DNA from: Candidatus Gastranaerophilales bacterium
GTDB taxonomy: Bacteria > Cyanobacteriota > Vampirovibrionia > Gastranaerophilales > Gastranaerophilaceae
Assembly: GCA_944323995.1 (NCBI GenBank)
Contig: CALUUN010000004.1
Span: 1-64,000 of the forward strand
Direction of reading: 5' to 3'
Length of the DNA: 64,000 nt
The first letter of the stretch is position 1, and the number at the start of each line of letters is the position of its first letter. Position numbers and translations under genes: made by a program. The notes under the pieces are model-generated. The model had not been told where the DNA came from and searched no databases. It saw nothing but the letters and a program-made list of their open reading frames with translations. Positions 12,672-56,024 of this stretch are shown here, piece after piece.

Positions 12672-12806
12672 AACAGTAGTACGACATAAGAACAACGAAA
12701 GGGGCTAAAAGTATGATGAATAGTGGATTTCAGCCTAAATGGGGGGGGGTACTTCTTTAAGCTCTCACCGTGCGGGTTTCGGGGTATTTTGGAGTAAAGG
12801 TTTTAC
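12672..12806 (+). repeat. 5' leader cassette of large prepilin gene, copy B
   Basis: This is the second copy of the 135-base leader at 1-135, with two mismatches. It contains AAGGGG, the tandem ATG-ATG at 12713-12718 and a G tract of the same length as in copy A. Confidence 0.85.
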
Positions 12807-13830
12807 ACTTGCGGAGGTTTTAATAACTCTTGCGATAATCGGCATAGTCGCGGCATTAACAATCCCGACGTTAGTGCAGAACTTCCAATCAAGAGCATGG
12901 GATACAGCATCAGAAGTATTCCAAAGAAAACTTGAAGAATCGTTAAAGGTAATGAATGTTCAAGGAACCTTAGCAGGATATACAACAACAGAAGCGTTTG
13001 TAAATGAACTTTCAAAACATATTAAAATAACAAGAATATGTGAAAATGATGAAATAACAACATGTTTTGCAGATACAGTAACCTGGGGAACAGAGAATGA
13101 AGAAGTAGAGATGGCAGATGTAAAAAGAGCATCACACTTCGGACAGGATAGCTGGGGAACAAATACTGTAGGAGTACAGTTTGCAAACGGTATTAACGGT
13201 GTAATTGCATACAACCCCGAATGCAGACAGGATCCATATTCAAATCAAATAACAGGAACTAGCTGCTTAGCAATATTATATGACGTAGACGGATTTAAGA
13301 ATCCAAATACACAGAATAAAGATTTAAGAAGTATAAACGTATCAAGTTTAGGCGGAAGTTCATGTTCATTTGAAGTAGACGGAATATGTTTCGGAACACC
13401 ATTTCAACCGACAGCATTAACAGCAGCAGATTGTAACGCAAACAAAGCAAAATACGGTATACAGAACTGCATGACAGTAGATAATGACTATTGGGGCGGC
13501 GCAATGAAAGCATGCGCAGACCAAGGAAAGCGACTACCAAACGACAGTGAACTAACAACTTTAGCAAATGACTTGTACAACACAACAGTAGGCGGCGGCG
13601 ACGGAGAATCAGTATATGCAACCATGAACACAGACAAAGCAAGTTCATACGGCATTCCCCTCACTGATTTAGGTGGCGGAGTTAGCGGCTTCCTCCTGTG
13701 GTCCGGTCTGGAGACGGACGCTCGCTACGCGCACGCACGCGAATTCGGCTCCGTGACCACGCTCTGGGCCTCGAATGGCAACAGAGTCTACTCCGGCCCG
13801 ATCTTCTGGGCGGTTTGCGTAGGTGAATAG
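12739..13830 (+). CDS. Large prepilin-like protein, putative DGR target, copy B
   Basis: The protein has a prepilin signal (KG/FTLAEVLITLAIIG), a membrane helix and a long extracytoplasmic domain that is nearly the same as the copy at 48.6 kb through much of its middle (for example DPYSNQITGTSCLAILYDV). The C-terminus has DNDYWGGAMKAC, RLPNDSELTTLA, LLWSG and a terminal FWAVCVGE, the order seen in DUF1566/FGE-like C-type-lectin domains that many DGR targets use. The last 141 bases are sharply GC-rich compared with the A-rich body of the gene and differ from the other copy mainly in first and second codon positions. The probable true start is ATG 12713, out of frame at the present G-tract length. 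Expected location after processing is a pilus or pseudopilus at the surface. Confidence 0.82.
   Translation: MGGGTSLSSHRAGFGVFWSKGFTLAEVLITLAIIGIVAALTIPTLVQNFQSRAWDTASEVFQRKLEESLKVMNVQGTLAGYTTTEAFVNELSKHIKITRICENDEITTCFADTVTWGTENEEVEMADVKRASHFGQDSWGTNTVGVQFANGINGVIAYNPECRQDPYSNQITGTSCLAILYDVDGFKNPNTQNKDLRSINVSSLGGSSCSFEVDGICFGTPFQPTALTAADCNANKAKYGIQNCMTVDNDYWGGAMKACADQGKRLPNDSELTTLANDLYNTTVGGGDGESVYATMNTDKASSYGIPLTDLGGGVSGFLLWSGLETDARYAHAREFGSVTTLWASNGNRVYSGPIFWAVCVGE
12741..12749 (+). repeat. Poly-G tract (9 G), putative phase-variation site, copy B
   Basis: Nine G follow the tandem start at 12713. From that start, translation ends after 15 residues at 12758-12760. A tract of 7, 10 or 13 G would connect it with the prepilin frame. 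As in copy A, the in-frame ATG at 12739 abuts the tract and has no ribosome binding site. Confidence 0.75.
13690..13830 (+). other. Putative DGR variable region, copy B
   Basis: This 141-base segment runs from the Phe codon before LLWSG to the stop. Aligned without gaps to 48736-48596 it shows 18 residue differences among 46. Between the two copies, 25 of 33 base differences fall in first or second codon positions. Trp, Ser, Gly, Ala and Arg positions between them are unchanged, and the last seven residues (WAVCVGE) are the same. That pattern fits adenine-directed mutagenic retrohoming from a template rich in AAC-type codons. No template repeat or reverse transcriptase is in the window. Confidence 0.75.
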
Positions 13831-37753: not shown

Positions 37754-38893
37754 ATGCAGACATATATACAAAAGAACAATCTTGAAAGAGCGGACATCAA
37801 TATAATCGCAACTGATTTGCCGGATTTAAAAAACATAAAAGAATCCAAAGCAGTCGCAATCGGCAAATGGCTTGCCGGCAGACTAAAGGCTTGTTTGAAA
37901 GACGGTTCAATAAGCGTAAACAATCTTTTGCCGTCAAAGGCTGAGTTTGCTTATACACTCGGAGTCAGCATAGGTACTATGCAGAACGCATTGAGATATA
38001 TTGAGGATTTAGGTATTGTGGAATCAAAACAGTGTATCGGAACTCTTGTAAAAGATTACAAAAAAAAGAATTCCGCAATGCGCAAACTGACTTCCAAACG
38101 CGAGATTGCAGTTGAATCAATCAAAAGATATATTTTACAAAATAATATACAGCAGGGCGAACATCTGCCCTCATCAAGAGTAATTGCGGAATTTACGGGC
38201 TGTTCAGCCAATACGGTAAGACTTGCGCTTGAATATTTGTGTACCTGCGGGATTCTTACCCACAAATTCAAAAACTCAAGAGAAACCGGCTGGATTTTAA
38301 AAAGCAGCGATTTCAGCATTAATGAAGAAAGTTCAAACGAAACACTTGTTTTAAAAATTCAGAATGATCTAAAAAAATATATTTCGGAAAATTTACGTAC
38401 GGGCGACAGAATTCCGGCGCATTCGGAATTGTCAAAAAAATTAAAAGTAAGCGTAAAAACAATTCACGATGCCTTAAAAATTCTTATAGCCGAAGGGATT
38501 TTGCTTGCAAAACGCGGACGATACGGGACAACCGTAATCCGCCTGCCTTATGAAATGGCGGTTGAGCAGCGCCGTGAAACCTCAATTTTTGCACCTGCGC
38601 AGGATACGGCATTTTACTATTATGAAAAAACTCAAAATCACATCAAAAAAATGATATCGGAAAATTACGCCATCGGACAAAAACTTCCGTCAATCAGCGA
38701 ACTTTCCAAACAGATGGATTTGAGTCCTAACACAATCAGGAAAGCGTTTCACAACCTTGCAAAAGAGGGTTATCTTGTATTTTCGCGCGGCCGTTACGGC
38801 GGAACTTTCGTAATAGACATTCCGGAAACCGAAGAACACGCGTTCAAATGGCTTGCGGTCAACCCAAAATACGCTCAGGTGTATAAAGATTAA
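37754..38893 (+). CDS. Protein of four tandem GntR-type winged-helix domains
   Basis: A 379-residue protein consisting almost entirely of four GntR/HTH-like winged helices. They are recognised by repeating cores: LLPSKAEFAYTLGVSIGTMQ (about 58-77), HLPSSRVIAEFTGCSANTVR, RIPAHSELSKKLKVSVKTIH and KLPSISELSKQMDLSPNTIR, each followed by a wing (the last two RGRYGTT and RGRYGGT). No ligand-binding domain is visible. Most GntR regulators have one such domain plus an effector domain. This could bind a long or repeated operator. It overlaps the convergent prepilin gene at 38890 by four bases. Confidence 0.85.
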   Translation: MQTYIQKNNLERADINIIATDLPDLKNIKESKAVAIGKWLAGRLKACLKDGSISVNNLLPSKAEFAYTLGVSIGTMQNALRYIEDLGIVESKQCIGTLVKDYKKKNSAMRKLTSKREIAVESIKRYILQNNIQQGEHLPSSRVIAEFTGCSANTVRLALEYLCTCGILTHKFKNSRETGWILKSSDFSINEESSNETLVLKIQNDLKKYISENLRTGDRIPAHSELSKKLKVSVKTIHDALKILIAEGILLAKRGRYGTTVIRLPYEMAVEQRRETSIFAPAQDTAFYYYEKTQNHIKKMISENYAIGQKLPSISELSKQMDLSPNTIRKAFHNLAKEGYLVFSRGRYGGTFVIDIPETEEHAFKWLAVNPKYAQVYKD

Positions 38894-39630
38894 TAAGGAT
38901 AATCTTCTTTAAATACAAAATTGTCCACAAACAGCAAATATGTGCATGAATGGCGGACATAAGTTTCCGTGTCCTCATTATAATCCGAATCTTCTACAGG
39001 CAGACAGGCTATACGTATAGAATTTGTCTGGTGATTTCTATCTTCATAATTAACCGTATAACCTGATTTTATTTCCTCTCTTGTAATATTTTGAGTATAA
39101 CCATAGGGTAAAATTCCTTTTTCAAACGCATCAGGCAGTATTACAAAATCAAATGAATCTGTTCCGGGAATTTTATTCTTGCCGGTTTTCATATTTACTG
39201 TAATTCGGAGATTAATAATACCTGAGGCATTATATGCGGCAATTGATAACCCTGTACCGTTACTTAAAAGATAATTACTTGAATATGCTCCGACACTGCT
39301 GCTCCCGCAATTTTCATCGGCTTCAGAACCAACACCGCAATATTTTGCTATCTTCATATACGGAGTAATATAATTTTCAGCAAAAGCCCTTGAATTTTCG
39401 GCGTTATCGGAAGAAAAAACTGTTTTCCAGGTGTTAATATCGCCATATTCAGCCTGCGCAAGTCTTAAAGCCTGTGACAACTCCGCATAAGATTTTCTGA
39501 CTTTTACGGCAGTCACTCTTTTTTGATAATCAGTTATCAGTGTTGGAATGGTTAACGCAGCAACAATTCCGACTATAGCAAGAGTAATCAATACTTCCGC
39601 CAGTGTAAACGCTTTTGCAAATTTTCTCAT
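38890..39630 (-). CDS. Prepilin-like protein
   Basis: A 246-residue type IV prepilin-like protein: short basic leader MRKFAKA, then FTLAEVLITLAIVG and the hydrophobic helix, with Ala rather than Gly before the cleavage point. The globular domain is smaller than in the three large prepilins and has cysteine pairs (YCGVG, NCGSS). AAGAGGT lies seven bases before ATG 39630. A GTG three codons upstream is less likely. It is divergent from a small XRE-type HTH gene at 39717. No G tract is present. Confidence 0.88.
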   Translation of the reverse strand: MRKFAKAFTLAEVLITLAIVGIVAALTIPTLITDYQKRVTAVKVRKSYAELSQALRLAQAEYGDINTWKTVFSSDNAENSRAFAENYITPYMKIAKYCGVGSEADENCGSSSVGAYSSNYLLSNGTGLSIAAYNASGIINLRITVNMKTGKNKIPGTDSFDFVILPDAFEKGILPYGYTQNITREEIKSGYTVNYEDRNHQTNSIRIACLPVEDSDYNEDTETYVRHSCTYLLFVDNFVFKEDYPY

Positions 39631-43241: not shown

Positions 43242-44246
43242 ATGAAAAAAAATAACGGTTTCACCCTAGCAGAAGTGCTGATAACGTTAGCAATCATCGG
43301 GATTGTCGCAGCACTAACTATCCCGACACTTGTGCAGAATTACCAAAAACGCGCTTGGGACACCGCATCACAGGTGTTTGAGAAAAAACTTGAAGAAGCA
43401 TTAAAAGTTATGAACACACAGGCGAGCTTAGCAGGATATAAGACAACCGAGGATTTTGTACATGCACTTTCTAAACATATGAAAATAACAAAAGTCTGCA
43501 AAAGTGATAATATAACTTCATGTTTTGAAAATGAAGTTTTTTGGGGCACACAGTCCGAAAAAATAGATATGACAAAAATGCATAAAGCACGACACTTTGG
43601 GTTGGACGACTGGGATACTGAATTAATAGGTTTACAATTTGCTAACGGTACAATCGGTATTATTGCTTACGACCCCAAATGTGAACAAAATCCGTTTAGT
43701 AATCAAGTGACAGGCAAAAGCTGTATTGCAATGCTATACGATATTAATGCTTTTATGCGTCCTAACAGTAACGGAAAAGACCTTAGAAGTATAAATATAA
43801 GTTCTCTAAATAACGTCTGCGTAGCTACTATAAATGGTAATTGTTATTCAAAAGCCTTTATCACACCGTATATAACATACGATGAGTGTATGAAATTAAA
43901 AAATAAACTAGGAATTAAAACATGTTATAAAGAAGCTGTTTGGAACCATAACGGAGAATATTGGGCCGGAGCTGTCAAACAATGTGGCGGAGTAGATAAT
44001 ATGCCTACTAAAGAAAATTTAAAAGAAATATATGAATATTTACATTCTGAAGGCGAGTATTCAGACATGCTTAGCAAATTAAATCTTAATAATAGAGAAA
44101 CTCTTTTTAGCGGCGTTGAATCAAATTATTATTCGGCTGTCTCAATACACTTGGATAATGGCAGATTTGATCAAACAGCAGCTAATACCCCTGAAAATGG
44201 TAGTTATAGATGGACAAGACAACAAGCAATTTGTATTGAACGATAA
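43242..44246 (+). CDS. Prepilin-like protein with large C-terminal domain
   Basis: A 334-residue prepilin. The short leader MKKNNG precedes FTLAEVLITLAIIGIVAALT. The globular part is homologous to the three large prepilins (HALSKHMKITKVC, NGEYWAGAVKQC) but has no G tract. Its end, SGVESNYYSAV followed by QQAICIER, is the same lectin-like motif without GC enrichment or a following hairpin. It therefore looks like a constitutive relative. AAAGGAG precedes the ATG. It lies in reverse orientation between infB and rbfA. Confidence 0.88.
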   Translation: MKKNNGFTLAEVLITLAIIGIVAALTIPTLVQNYQKRAWDTASQVFEKKLEEALKVMNTQASLAGYKTTEDFVHALSKHMKITKVCKSDNITSCFENEVFWGTQSEKIDMTKMHKARHFGLDDWDTELIGLQFANGTIGIIAYDPKCEQNPFSNQVTGKSCIAMLYDINAFMRPNSNGKDLRSINISSLNNVCVATINGNCYSKAFITPYITYDECMKLKNKLGIKTCYKEAVWNHNGEYWAGAVKQCGGVDNMPTKENLKEIYEYLHSEGEYSDMLSKLNLNNRETLFSGVESNYYSAVSIHLDNGRFDQTAANTPENGSYRWTRQQAICIER

Positions 44247-48124: not shown

Positions 48125-48563
48125 AATACAATTATAACAGGAACAAGAAAAAAGTCGAGCATCTGACAAGCCGCAAAGTCTGTAATGAAATCTGTCCATG
48201 AAAATCCGAAATACGCAATATGACACACCCCGCTGCAATGATGCGGCTGAAATCCTCCCACACTTGAGAGGTTAGGGTGGGAGGCTTTAAGTGTGATATA
48301 GCAGTTTTCCGCAGGTTTAAAACTCTGGTGAAGGGTCGTCGGATTAGTAAATCCGACCTACAATTCTGTAACGGTTGCCAGATGCTGAAACAAGTTCAGC
48401 ATGACAAATTTTACAGAAGAATAGCCTCTCCCCATGTGGGAGAGGCCGCAGTTGTGTGAACGCAGTGAACAACAAATGCGGGTGAGGGGTCTAAATATGC
48501 ATGAAGTTCTCAAATTACCCCTCACCTGAATTTCTAACACTCGTTCCTCGTGTTGAAATTCTG
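48125..48563. repeat. Intergenic mosaic of short palindromic repeats
   Basis: About 440 bases without a gene, made of several small repeats. CCTCCCAC and GTGGGAGG lie near 48250-48285. The palindrome GTCGGATT/AATCCGAC (48338-48357) is shared with 44289-44308. GCTGAA and TTCAGC lie at about 48384-48400. The hairpin CCTCTCCC/GGGAGAGG is at 48425-48445 with loop CATGT. GGGTGAGGGG (48480 region) pairs with CCCCTCACC (48520 region). The assembly resembles a REP/MITE cluster with no transposase. Its hairpin equals the one following the DGR-like genes except for one loop base. Confidence 0.6.
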
Positions 48564-48584
48564 CCTCTCCCACAAGGGGAGAGG
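48564..48584 (-). other. Post-stop hairpin of DGR-like target, copy C
   Basis: Read on the minus strand this is CCTCTCCC, loop CTTGT, GGGAGAGG, 11 bases after the stop codon, exactly as at 13842-13862. The 11 bases between stop and hairpin are also the same in both copies. Position fits the hairpin that marks DGR target sites, although a near copy lies in the adjoining repeat mosaic. Confidence 0.55.
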
Positions 48585-48595
48585 AAATTCTGCTG

Positions 48596-48736
48596 CTATT
48601 CACCTACACAGACAGCCCAGAGGAGCGGGATGGAGAAGTCTCTGGCGCCGTGGGAGTACCAGCCCGTGCCATCGGAGCTGAACCCGCGGCCGTGCGCGGT
48701 GCGAGCGTTCGTCTCCTGACCGGACCACAAGCGGAA
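48596..48736 (-). other. Putative DGR variable region, copy C
   Basis: A 141-base GC-rich end of the prepilin gene, the same length as 13690-13830. Residues FRLWSGQETNARTAHGRGF align with FLLWSGLETDARYAHAREF: substitutions fall at scattered surface-type positions while Trp, Ser, Gly and Arg positions stay fixed. Several codon pairs (TAC/GCC, GGC/ACC, ATC/GGC) differ at both first and second positions and keep the third C, as AAC template codons would produce. Confidence 0.75.
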
Positions 48737-49642
48737 GTCGCCGCTTCCGCCTTCTCCATAGAGAGGGATGCCGTATGAGCTTGTTTTGTCTGTGTCTAAG
48801 GTTGCATCGAAGAATTCTCCGTCACCGCCGCTTACTGTGGTGTTATACAAGTCATTTGCTAATGTGGTTAGTTCCGCATCGGTAGGCATTCTTTTTCCTT
48901 GCTCTGCGCACGTTTTTACTGCACCAGCCCAATAGTCATTGGTTCCATAGGCTGATGTCATGCAGTATTGAATATTGTGCTCGCCCATAAATGCTAAGTC
49001 ATCCGGATTACTAGTTGTTCCGTAAACATCACACCCGTTCCATACATGCGGTGTCGGTTGGAATGGAGTTCCGAAACATATTCCGTCTACTTCAAATGAA
49101 CATGAACTTCCGCCTAAACTTGATACGTTTATACTTCTTAAATCTTTATTCTGTGTATTTGGATTCTTAAATCCGTCTACGTCATATAATATTGCTAAAC
49201 AGCTTGTGCCGGTTATCTGGTTTGAGTATGGATCCTGTTTACAGCTTTCTGTTGGGTTGTATGCTATTACTGCGTTTACTCCGTTTGCAAATTGTACTCC
49301 TACTGTATTTGTTCCCCATGTTTCCTGACCAAAGTGGGATGCTCTTTTTACATCCGCCATCTCTACTTCTTCGTTTTCTGTTCCCCAAGTAACTTTATCC
49401 GCAAAGCATGTTGTTATATCATCGTTATCGCATATTCTTGTTATCTTAATATGTTTAGAAAGTTCATCAACAAATGCTTCCGTTGTTGTATAGCCTGCTA
49501 AGGTTCCTTGAACATTCATTACTTTCAATGATTCTTCAAGTTTTCTTTGAAATACTTCTGATGCGGTATCCCATGCTTCTTGTTGAAAATTCTGCACTAA
49601 CGTCGGGATTGTTAATGCCGCGACTATTCCGATTATTGCCAA
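48596..49642 (-). CDS. Large prepilin-like protein, putative DGR target, copy C
   Basis: The third large prepilin, paralogous along its whole length to the gene at 12739-13830. The uninterrupted frame that can be listed begins at a TTG inside the prepilin helix (49642). This cannot be the real start, because the FTLAEV motif lies just upstream at about 49669. The real start is very probably ATG 49779 behind GGAGG, giving leader MAKNADYITSLSR and then the G tract. With 12 G that start is out of frame and meets a stop at 49693. With 10 or 13 G the full protein of about 395 residues would be made, with Ala before the FTLAEV cleavage point. The C-terminus is lectin-like and variable. Confidence 0.8.
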   Translation of the reverse strand: MAIIGIVAALTIPTLVQNFQQEAWDTASEVFQRKLEESLKVMNVQGTLAGYTTTEAFVDELSKHIKITRICDNDDITTCFADKVTWGTENEEVEMADVKRASHFGQETWGTNTVGVQFANGVNAVIAYNPTESCKQDPYSNQITGTSCLAILYDVDGFKNPNTQNKDLRSINVSSLGGSSCSFEVDGICFGTPFQPTPHVWNGCDVYGTTSNPDDLAFMGEHNIQYCMTSAYGTNDYWAGAVKTCAEQGKRMPTDAELTTLANDLYNTTVSGGDGEFFDATLDTDKTSSYGIPLYGEGGSGDFRLWSGQETNARTAHGRGFSSDGTGWYSHGARDFSIPLLWAVCVGE

Positions 49643-49730
49643 GGTAATTAAAACCTCCGCAAGTGTAAAGGCTGATTTAACTTTTGGGGTTATTAAACTG
49701 CTGTGTTCAGCGCGTGAAGCTGATTTACAG

Positions 49731-49742
49731 CCCCCCCCCCCC
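49731..49742 (-). repeat. Poly-G tract (12 G on minus strand), putative phase-variation site, copy C
   Basis: Twelve C on the plus strand interrupt the prepilin gene after residue 12 of the frame begun at ATG 49779. The gene is readable with 10 or 13 G. The tract is three bases longer than in copies A and B, while its surrounding sequence is unrelated to theirs. A G tract therefore seems to have been kept, or gained, independently of the leader sequence. Confidence 0.75.
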
Positions 49743-49923
49743 TACTCAAGGAGGTGATGTAGTCTGCGTTTTTGGCCATTTGTTTTTCCTCCGTTTTCTC
49801 TTCCATAAAAAGATTTTACCAGAAGTTTTTAATTTCTGCAAGTATATTAACATTAAACTTGCAAATTAGTAAATTATATGCCTAATCTGCTTCGTTTATC
49901 ATTTTTTATGTTAGTATATAATC

Positions 49924-53450: not shown

Positions 53451-56024
53451 TCAATTAAAAAGATTTAACTGCGGCACGGCAGGGGTCGGTACATCTGTTT
53501 TTTTTCTTGCCGAAAGATTGTTGGAGTGATCTTTTTGCATTCTTGTCATCAAATCCTGTGAGCGTTTAATTACGCTGTTGGGCAGACCCGCCATTTTTGC
53601 GACCTGAATACCGTAGCTTCTGCTTGCACCGCCTTGAACAATTTTTCTTAAAAATTCAATCTCGCCGTTTTCTTCGGAAATTGTTATTCTGTAATTTTTA
53701 ATCTGCGGATATGAATTTGTCATTACGTTTAGTTCGTGGTAGTGGGTTGCAAAGATGCATCTTGCTTTGATTTTTGTCGCAATGTATTCCGCAACTGCCC
53801 AGGCTATTGCAACACCGTCGTAGGTGCTTGTTCCCCTGCCGATTTCGTCAAGCAGGATGAGGCTTCTTTCTGTTGCGGAATTTAGTATGCAGGCGGTTTC
53901 TATCATTTCAACCATAAAAGTTGATTGTCCGAGGGTTAAATCGTCAGACGCTCCGACTCTTGTGAATATTTTATCAATAATACCTATTTTTACGTAGTCT
54001 GCCGGAACCCATGAACCTATTTGCGCAAGGATTGCAATGAGTGCATTTTGCCGCATATAGGTTGATTTACCCGCCATGTTCGGGCCTGTCAATATCATAA
54101 ATTGTGTTGTGTCAACAGAATTGCATTTTAAAGTCAGATCGTTTGAAACGTATTCTCCGAGCGGAAGAATTTTTTCCAGAACCGCGTGACGGCCGTTTTT
54201 GACAATAAAATCGTCAGATTCGTCAACTATCGGTTTTACATAATTATTTTCAACCGCGGTTTCTGCAAGCGATGCCGCAACGTCTGCCTGTGCAATGGCG
54301 TCTGCGATTTCTCTTATTTTTGTTACAAATTCTTTTGAGTATTCTCTGAAATCGGTGAACAGTTTGTATTCAAGTTCGGTTGATTTGAAACGGGCTGACA
54401 GAACATCATCTTCGTGTTTTTTGAGTTCTTCCGTTATAAATCTTTCCGCATTGGTAAGTGTTTGTTTGCGGATGTAGTTGTCGGGTGTCATGCTTATGTT
54501 TGTGTTTGTGATTTCGATAAAATACCCGAAAACTTTGTTGTAGCCTACTTTTAAAGTTTTTATGCCAGTTTTTTCTCTTTCTGTTTCTTCAAAATCTTTG
54601 AGCCATTTTTCTCCGCCGGTTAAAAGATCTCTGAAGTAGTCGAGTTCGCTGTTAACCTTGTCTTTAATTATTCCGCCCTCTTTTATATGAATCGGCGGAT
54701 TATCAACAATGGTTCTGTCTATCAGGTTTGTATAATCTTCAATTTCACGGCGGTAGGATGCAATTTTTTTGAACGGGTTAGATTCAAGATTTTCGGCTAT
54801 TGCAAGAATTTTCGGCAGAGCTGCAAGAGATGTTTTAAGACTTATAAAATCTCTCGGGCTTGCGGTTCCGTTGCTCATTCTGGTGGAAAGCCTTTGGATA
54901 TCCTGAACCTTTTCAAACTGTTCAAGAATATCATGTCTGATTGATTCTTTTTCAACAAACTCGCTTACTGCATTCTGGCGCGAAATTATATCCGCGGAAT
55001 TTTTTAAAGGCTGGCAGATTCTGCTTTTCAGCATTCTTGCGCCCATATTTGTTTTTGTTTTATCTATAGCCCACAAAAGTGAACCGTAGCGGCTTTTTTC
55101 GCGGATAGTTTCAGTAAGTTCAAGATTTTTTCTTGTATTTACATCAATCATCATGTATTCGGAAAGTTCATAGCTTTCAATACGTTCAAATTTAGGCATG
55201 TTGCCTTTCTGGGTTTCCCAGATATATGACAAAAGCGCTCCGGCGGCTCTGAATCCGAGTTTATACGTGTTATAGCCGAAAGCATCAAGGCTTGAAGTTT
55301 CAAACACGGCTTTCAGATTATTTTCCGCAAACGCCGGTTCAAAAACAGACGCGGGAATTTTTGTGCAATTATAATTCAACGTTATTTTTTCGGGAAGGTT
55401 AATTTTTTCATCCGGAACTATCTGGAAGGGTTTAATTTCTTCACGTACGGACGGTGCAATAATTTCAGCCGGATTTAATCTTGCAAGTTCCGACAGCAGA
55501 AGTTCTATAGGAGCCTGCGTCGTTTTGAATTCTCCGGTTGAAACATCAGTGTATGCAAATCCGTATAAATTGCTTTTTTCGTCTTTGTATATTGAACAAA
55601 TATAGTTGTTGGAGTTTTGTTCCAAAAAACCGCTTTCAATAATTGTTCCGGCTGTAACAATACGGGTAACTCCGCGTTTTACAAGATCTTTTGCATATTT
55701 CGGATCTTCAAGCTGATCGCATATCGCAACTTTTATATTTCTTTGAACAAGTTTTTCCAGATAAGAATCCACAGCTTTTACCGGAATTCCGGCAAGCGGA
55801 ATTCTGCCGAGCCCTCCGGCATCACGGCTTGTCAAAGTAAGTTCAAGTTCTTTTGAAAGAAGCATGGCGTCTTCAAAAAACGTTTCGTAAAAATCACCCA
55901 GACGATACAGCAAAAGCATGTTCGGGTTTTCTCTTTTTATATCCAGATACTGCCTCATAACAGGCGTTGTTTCTTCGGGTAATACTTCCCAGCTTTTAAT
56001 GTTATTAATTTCTATTTTTGTCAT
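53451..56024 (-). CDS. mutS: DNA mismatch repair protein MutS
   Basis: An 857-residue MutS1-type protein. The mismatch-reading Phe-x-Glu motif is in YRLGDFYETFFEDA (about residues 40-53). The core and clamp are followed by the ATPase: TGPNMAGKSTYMRQ (Walker A), LLDEIGRGTSTYDG and ATHYHEL. All expected domains I to V are present. No mutL is adjacent. An intact mismatch repair gene bears on slippage at the G tracts, since loss of MutS would raise it. Confidence 0.96.
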   Translation of the reverse strand: MTKIEINNIKSWEVLPEETTPVMRQYLDIKRENPNMLLLYRLGDFYETFFEDAMLLSKELELTLTSRDAGGLGRIPLAGIPVKAVDSYLEKLVQRNIKVAICDQLEDPKYAKDLVKRGVTRIVTAGTIIESGFLEQNSNNYICSIYKDEKSNLYGFAYTDVSTGEFKTTQAPIELLLSELARLNPAEIIAPSVREEIKPFQIVPDEKINLPEKITLNYNCTKIPASVFEPAFAENNLKAVFETSSLDAFGYNTYKLGFRAAGALLSYIWETQKGNMPKFERIESYELSEYMMIDVNTRKNLELTETIREKSRYGSLLWAIDKTKTNMGARMLKSRICQPLKNSADIISRQNAVSEFVEKESIRHDILEQFEKVQDIQRLSTRMSNGTASPRDFISLKTSLAALPKILAIAENLESNPFKKIASYRREIEDYTNLIDRTIVDNPPIHIKEGGIIKDKVNSELDYFRDLLTGGEKWLKDFEETEREKTGIKTLKVGYNKVFGYFIEITNTNISMTPDNYIRKQTLTNAERFITEELKKHEDDVLSARFKSTELEYKLFTDFREYSKEFVTKIREIADAIAQADVAASLAETAVENNYVKPIVDESDDFIVKNGRHAVLEKILPLGEYVSNDLTLKCNSVDTTQFMILTGPNMAGKSTYMRQNALIAILAQIGSWVPADYVKIGIIDKIFTRVGASDDLTLGQSTFMVEMIETACILNSATERSLILLDEIGRGTSTYDGVAIAWAVAEYIATKIKARCIFATHYHELNVMTNSYPQIKNYRITISEENGEIEFLRKIVQGGASRSYGIQVAKMAGLPNSVIKRSQDLMTRMQKDHSNNLSARKKTDVPTPAVPQLNLFN

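Follow-up and report, generated by a model that had tools for sequence, protein, structure and literature searches.

The window, the whole stretch of 64,000 nucleotides that was analysed, corresponds to contig 4 of an assembly that comprises 35 contigs and 1.75 Mb. The Gastranaerophilales, which inhabit animal guts, are related to cyanobacteria but do not photosynthesise; they have been little studied, and the records of proteins related to those described here are Ca. Gastranaerophilales MAGs.

On its minus strand, the window carries a gene, here called copy C, in which a leader and a type IV prepilin ORF lie in different reading frames with 12 G between them. This tract, the proposed phase switch, occupies 49731-49742, exactly where the initial annotation had placed it (C12 on the plus strand, hence G12 on the minus strand). 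Upstream of it, we found a putative promoter at 49813-49841 (-35 box TTGCAG at 49841-49836 and -10 box TAAAAT at 49818-49813, with 17 nt spacing), a layout also found in sister cassettes, followed by a Shine-Dalgarno-like GGAGG at 49788-49792, which also agrees with the architecture pattern given below, and a leader at 49743-49779 (MAKNADYITSLS..). The ATG at 49779 stands 37 nt from the tract, and the minus-strand sequence between them is MAKNADYITSLSR. Beyond the tract, a segment at 49670-49730 (CKSASRAEHSSLITPKVKSA) is open in the prepilin frame and leads to a prepilin-type protein of 357 aa at 48599-49669, which starts at FTLAEVLIT and reads, from 49669, FTLAEVLITLAIIGIVAALTIP. In the assembly, this protein is out of frame with the ATG, whose own frame closes after 28 aa (MAKNADYITSLSRGGGAVNQLHALNTAV*). 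Copy C scored above the cut-off of TIGR02532, the type IV prepilin cleavage/methylation motif (C4:49607-49675), and its N-terminal 49 residues gave a profile match to a Geobacter pilin; Pfam N_methyl fell below its own cut-off.

When the tract length of copy C was varied, a single ORF resulted only at G10 (393 aa) and G13 (394 aa), whereas at lengths of 9, 11, 12 and 14 no more than 28 aa could be read from the ATG. The start is thus out of frame, as had been claimed, but the tract length being a multiple of three has no special meaning: the in-frame lengths of copy C are 10 and 13 because an extra A precedes its tract, compared to 11 and 14 in sister copies.

Translation might instead start at the tract itself, where, in tracts whose length is divisible by three, ATG-G or GTG-G meets the prepilin frame. 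Such a start would fit several G12 sisters (GAGTG12) as well as the G9 copies of leader family 1 described below, which have an ATG (AAATG9) that overlaps the tract and shares the frame of the prepilin. However, TAG stands at that position in copy C and at one other locus (L057), a start codon is missing at this point from other loci, and such a start has no ribosome site 5' of it. A start at the tract was rejected as a general explanation on account of the TAG in copy C and the missing ribosome site, and we consider it highly improbable. Moreover, since this TAG lies directly 5' of the tract in the prepilin frame, no upstream start can serve the copy C prepilin at G12.

Two other prepilin genes of the window, both on the plus strand, carry G9 tracts: copy A at 70-78 (ATG at 42, prepilin at 131-1147) and copy B at 12741-12749 (ATG at 12713, prepilin at 12802-13827). 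Both are out of frame and read through at G10, giving 369 aa and 372 aa, respectively. The initial annotation described all three large prepilins as OFF. This holds for copies A, B and C, but not for every large prepilin of the window, where two more are tract-free and in frame, namely a related gene at 43242-44243 (plus strand), which provides an internal contrast, and a further one at 38893-39609 (minus strand). An A8 run lies just past the start codon in tract-free prepilins (43245-43252 in the window, and L242); it is a possible slippage site and is in frame in the assembly.

Being out of frame in the assembly, the prepilins could be decaying pseudogenes, an alternative that had been raised at the outset. 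Their ORFs, however, remain open over 200-450 aa, and pairwise dN/dS among the out-of-frame paralogues, calculated for 16 mature proteins from the first 215 columns of their alignment, ranged from 0.04 to a maximum of 0.23 with a median of 0.13. For copy C and its three nearest relatives, values of 0.045-0.093 were obtained at dS ~0.5. The median of 0.13 indicates purifying selection, and thus genes that are maintained. Taken together with the adenine-specific changes in variable regions reported below, these results rule out the pseudogene alternative, to which we attach hardly any credence.

Poly-G tracts and their cassettes in the genome

Over the whole genome, 31 G/C runs of at least 9 were seen, compared to 1.6 expected from a first-order Markov estimate built from the window, indicating that such tracts are over-represented; runs of at least 12 are expected by chance only ~0.0005 times in 64 kb. 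All 31 runs are G on the coding strand and follow a start codon with a Shine-Dalgarno-like sequence, and every tract not cut by a contig end leads into a prepilin-type ORF. Their lengths are 9 (n = 19), 10 (n = 4), 12 (n = 7) and 13 (n = 1), with none of 11. Three of the ~28 classifiable tracts are in frame, one at L043 and two near a diversity-generating retroelement (DGR) in L056. In contrast, 19 of 20 sampled tract-free prepilins have an in-frame start and a ribosome site, indicating that the out-of-frame condition is specific to the tract genes. The genome holds 85 prepilin-type N-termini, which is very many for a small genome of 1.75 Mb.

Homopolymer errors in sequencing or assembly could also bring about such frame disagreement, and the position of several tracts at contig ends shows that the cassette repeats do disrupt assembly. 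Nevertheless, errors of this kind cannot put long G runs almost only after prepilin starts, and both the architecture and the mix of frame states recur in dozens of separately assembled genomes, which makes this explanation very unlikely. A consensus drawn from a mixed population may be the source of the out-of-frame assembly, but it is itself what phase variation would produce.

The leader of copies A and B (leader family 1) occurs in 12 copies, the two in the window and 10 others, which are alike from the -35 box to ~50 nt past the tract and differ in their outer flanks, suggesting duplicated promoter-leader-switch cassettes. All 12 have exactly G9. The copy C leader is indeed unrelated to those of A and B, as had been stated, but it is not peculiar to copy C: it is common to seven other loci of the genome (89-98% identity), with partial matches in addition. 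These seven sister loci have tract lengths of 10, 10, 12, 12, 12, 12 and 13. Thus, within the one genome compared, tract length differs among paralogues of the copy C leader and is fixed at 9 in leader family 1.

No amino-acid constraint on the leader peptide was detected in nine related leaders, so that only an open frame seems to be needed. In some long leaders (L038, L044, L048, L053, L056 and L057), the stretch between the tract and FTLAEV contains in-frame insertions of dispersed repeat elements (HCEERSDVAIA.., LPLGEGGTQCRVRVKK..), sometimes adjoining a duplicated FTLAEV motif, and similar repeat-like sequence occurs in an intergenic stretch of the window at 48340-48600. At two loci (L057 and L047), one family's leader is joined at the tract to the post-tract sequence of another family; judging from these junctions, the G tract may also serve as a recombination joint.

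Frame states in relatives and probable phase variation

We searched relatives for the architecture using the pattern GGAG-N3-13-ATG-N18-48-G9, which gave up to 42 matches on one strand, with reversed-pattern controls at or near zero. Tracts were present in all 13 genomes of the genus sample, and the architecture in 73 of the 146 genomes examined from the order, which, with a single exception, belong to the window's family; in other cyanobacterial lineages, the pattern was at background level. A few poly-G tracts of relatives lie in non-prepilin genes (L080, radical-SAM-like; L147, glycosyltransferase-like; L149, epimerase-like), whose predicted products may modify the cell surface.

In these relatives, tracts range from 9 to 13 G and yield the in-frame and both out-of-frame states. 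In the genus and near relatives, 10 tracts are in frame, 24 need +1 and 5 need +2, and in other genera the respective numbers are 8, 29 and 32. Pooled, 21 of 137 tracts are in frame, where one third is expected (p 2.8e-6, an optimistic value as the sequences are partly related), and this shortage suggests that the DNA frame has consequences. A leader search in 16 genomes of the genus showed that species do not have the leader in common, which leaves no orthologous tracts whose lengths could be compared; scans of viral contigs with the two leaders, in which strain variants were sought, gave no matches.

The frame states bear on the proposal that the shift comes from programmed slippage of transcription, or from ribosomal frameshifting, on the G run, with expression from a fixed G12 allele. 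The tracts are long enough to make slippage plausible, and slippage rescue at poly(A) tracts has been reported in Buchnera (PMC2831843). The fixed length of leader family 1 would agree with this proposal, as would the fact that +1 is the commonest required state in the genus. However, the required shift is not conserved across homologues: many loci need +1 and many need +2, whereas some need no shift, and such mixed requirements across loci and species argue against one programmed frameshift. Moreover, slippage that made the DNA frame irrelevant would leave one third of the tracts in frame, which is not what the pooled count shows. The single slippage step put forward in the initial annotation is thus unsupported, and programmed slippage is in our view unlikely.

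We consider slipped-strand phase variation the best reading of the copy C G12 tract and a probable one, with copy C as a contingency gene. This reading, like the OFF consensus proposed earlier together with it, finds good support in the pattern seen across the genome and the family. Slipped-strand mispairing, by analogy with Campylobacter jejuni the simplest account, would add or remove one or more G in the copy C tract during replication. At 10 or 13 G, a ribosome starting at the ATG would read across the leader and on into the prepilin, whereas at any other length it would meet a stop within ~28 codons and the pilin would be OFF, the assembled (majority) state. Copy C is one of ~30 genes of this build, which are scattered over the genome as cassettes of promoter, ribosome site, leader and tract joined to different prepilins. 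Tract length would be expected to change within the population and thereby switch expression, and the poly-G proteins would presumably be displayed on pili or the surface as variable adhesins.

It should be noted that free slippage neither predicts nor explains the uniform G9 of leader family 1, which counts against it, and that the in-frame proportion, being below one third, obliges phase variation to take on an added assumption, e.g., selection for few expressed genes at once. Judging from the sequence, MutS is encoded at 53451-56024 of the window, and the genome also has MutL; together they may lower slippage, and the rate may be below that of C. jejuni.

Diversity-generating retroelements and the poly-G genes

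Two DGR cassettes, each comprising a reverse transcriptase, the accessory protein Avd and a template, were found, one in L056 on contig 19 (G000:C19:22324-24120) and one in L045 on contig 8 (G000:C8:56686-58194), and in both of them Pfam RVT_1 and bAvd scored over their cut-offs. The templates match 22 and 10 variable regions, respectively, giving 32 in total, dispersed over the genome. At least 14 of the 32 lie in poly-G genes, copies B and C among them, and DGR targets make up about half of the ~30 poly-G genes. At least 18 of these regions fall elsewhere than in the poly-G genes examined, and the set of remote targets is unusually large. A large metagenome survey of DGRs states that a remote-target layout would escape its detection (PMC8144416).

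The variable region of copy C lies at 48600-48744 on the minus strand (template TR2 on contig 8) and that of copy B at 13682-13826 on the plus strand (template TR2). Mismatches to the template affect 22 of 38 template A vs 15 of 107 other bases in copy C, and 18 of 38 vs 2 of 107 in copy B. When 14 variable regions were pooled, mismatches were found at 272 of 627 template A, compared to 114 of 1296 other bases (p ~1e-66). The two retroelements would rewrite C-terminal codons in about half of the poly-G genes, including B and C. An AF2 model had a mean pLDDT of 70.7, a modest confidence, and a PDB fold search, in which a C-type lectin fold was looked for around the variable region, returned no significant match.

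DGRs were rejected as a family-wide partner of the poly-G switches, given that, among the 146 genomes of the order, only 16 have an Avd that scores over the cut-off. The switches therefore exist without DGRs, and the combination is confined to a subset.

We tentatively suggest, as a possibility somewhat short of even, a two-layer diversification of the surface, in which DGRs rewrite the C-terminal ends of a large, mostly silent set of type IV pilin-like adhesins and poly-G switches reveal few of them at a time. If so, the lineage would hold a hidden, changing archive of variants, and in-frame tracts would be scarce because selection favours few variants per cell.

Comparison with known systems

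In the open literature, we found no paper that linked phase variation or DGRs to Gastranaerophilales or Melainabacteria, and none describing a poly-G switch and DGR combination in one pilin repertoire; a paper on cyanobacterial DGRs makes no mention of Melainabacteria or of pilins. Both poly-G contingency genes and DGR targets are known in themselves, and it is their combination in one pilin repertoire that is new with respect to this literature. DGR hypermutation overlapping poly-G switches in the same genes would unite two diversification strategies that are usually studied apart.

PilC of Neisseria undergoes phase variation through a G tract in its signal-peptide region. As there, the G run is found in a type IV pilus gene, close to its 5' end; it acts as an on/off switch in Neisseria and would do so here. 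PilC is a pilus tip protein encoded by one or two genes, in contrast to the ~30 prepilins per genome described here in unrelated bacteria.

The poly-G/C contingency genes of C. jejuni offer a further parallel, since runs of ~9-12 G in the 5' coding sequence set the frame and tens of such genes occur per genome. In C. jejuni, the G tracts are mainly at G9 and G10, indel rates are 1e-4 to 1.6e-3 per division and each strain has 18-39 potential phase-variable genes (PMC8355987). Here, unlike in C. jejuni, nearly all the genes are of prepilin type, the promoter-leader-tract cassettes are repeated, many of the genes are DGR targets and the host, a relative of cyanobacteria, has MutS and MutL. If poly-G switched pilins form a family-wide set that equals or exceeds the one in Campylobacter, this would suggest a way in which Gastranaerophilales vary their surface in the gut.

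Finally, DGR-diversified pilins have been described in gut Bacteroides (as cited in PMC12632263). In both cases, retroelements of gut bacteria diversify surface proteins that resemble pilins; the Bacteroides proteins belong to type V pili, whereas here type IV prepilins are concerned, two templates match 32 dispersed regions, and poly-G switches are added to them.
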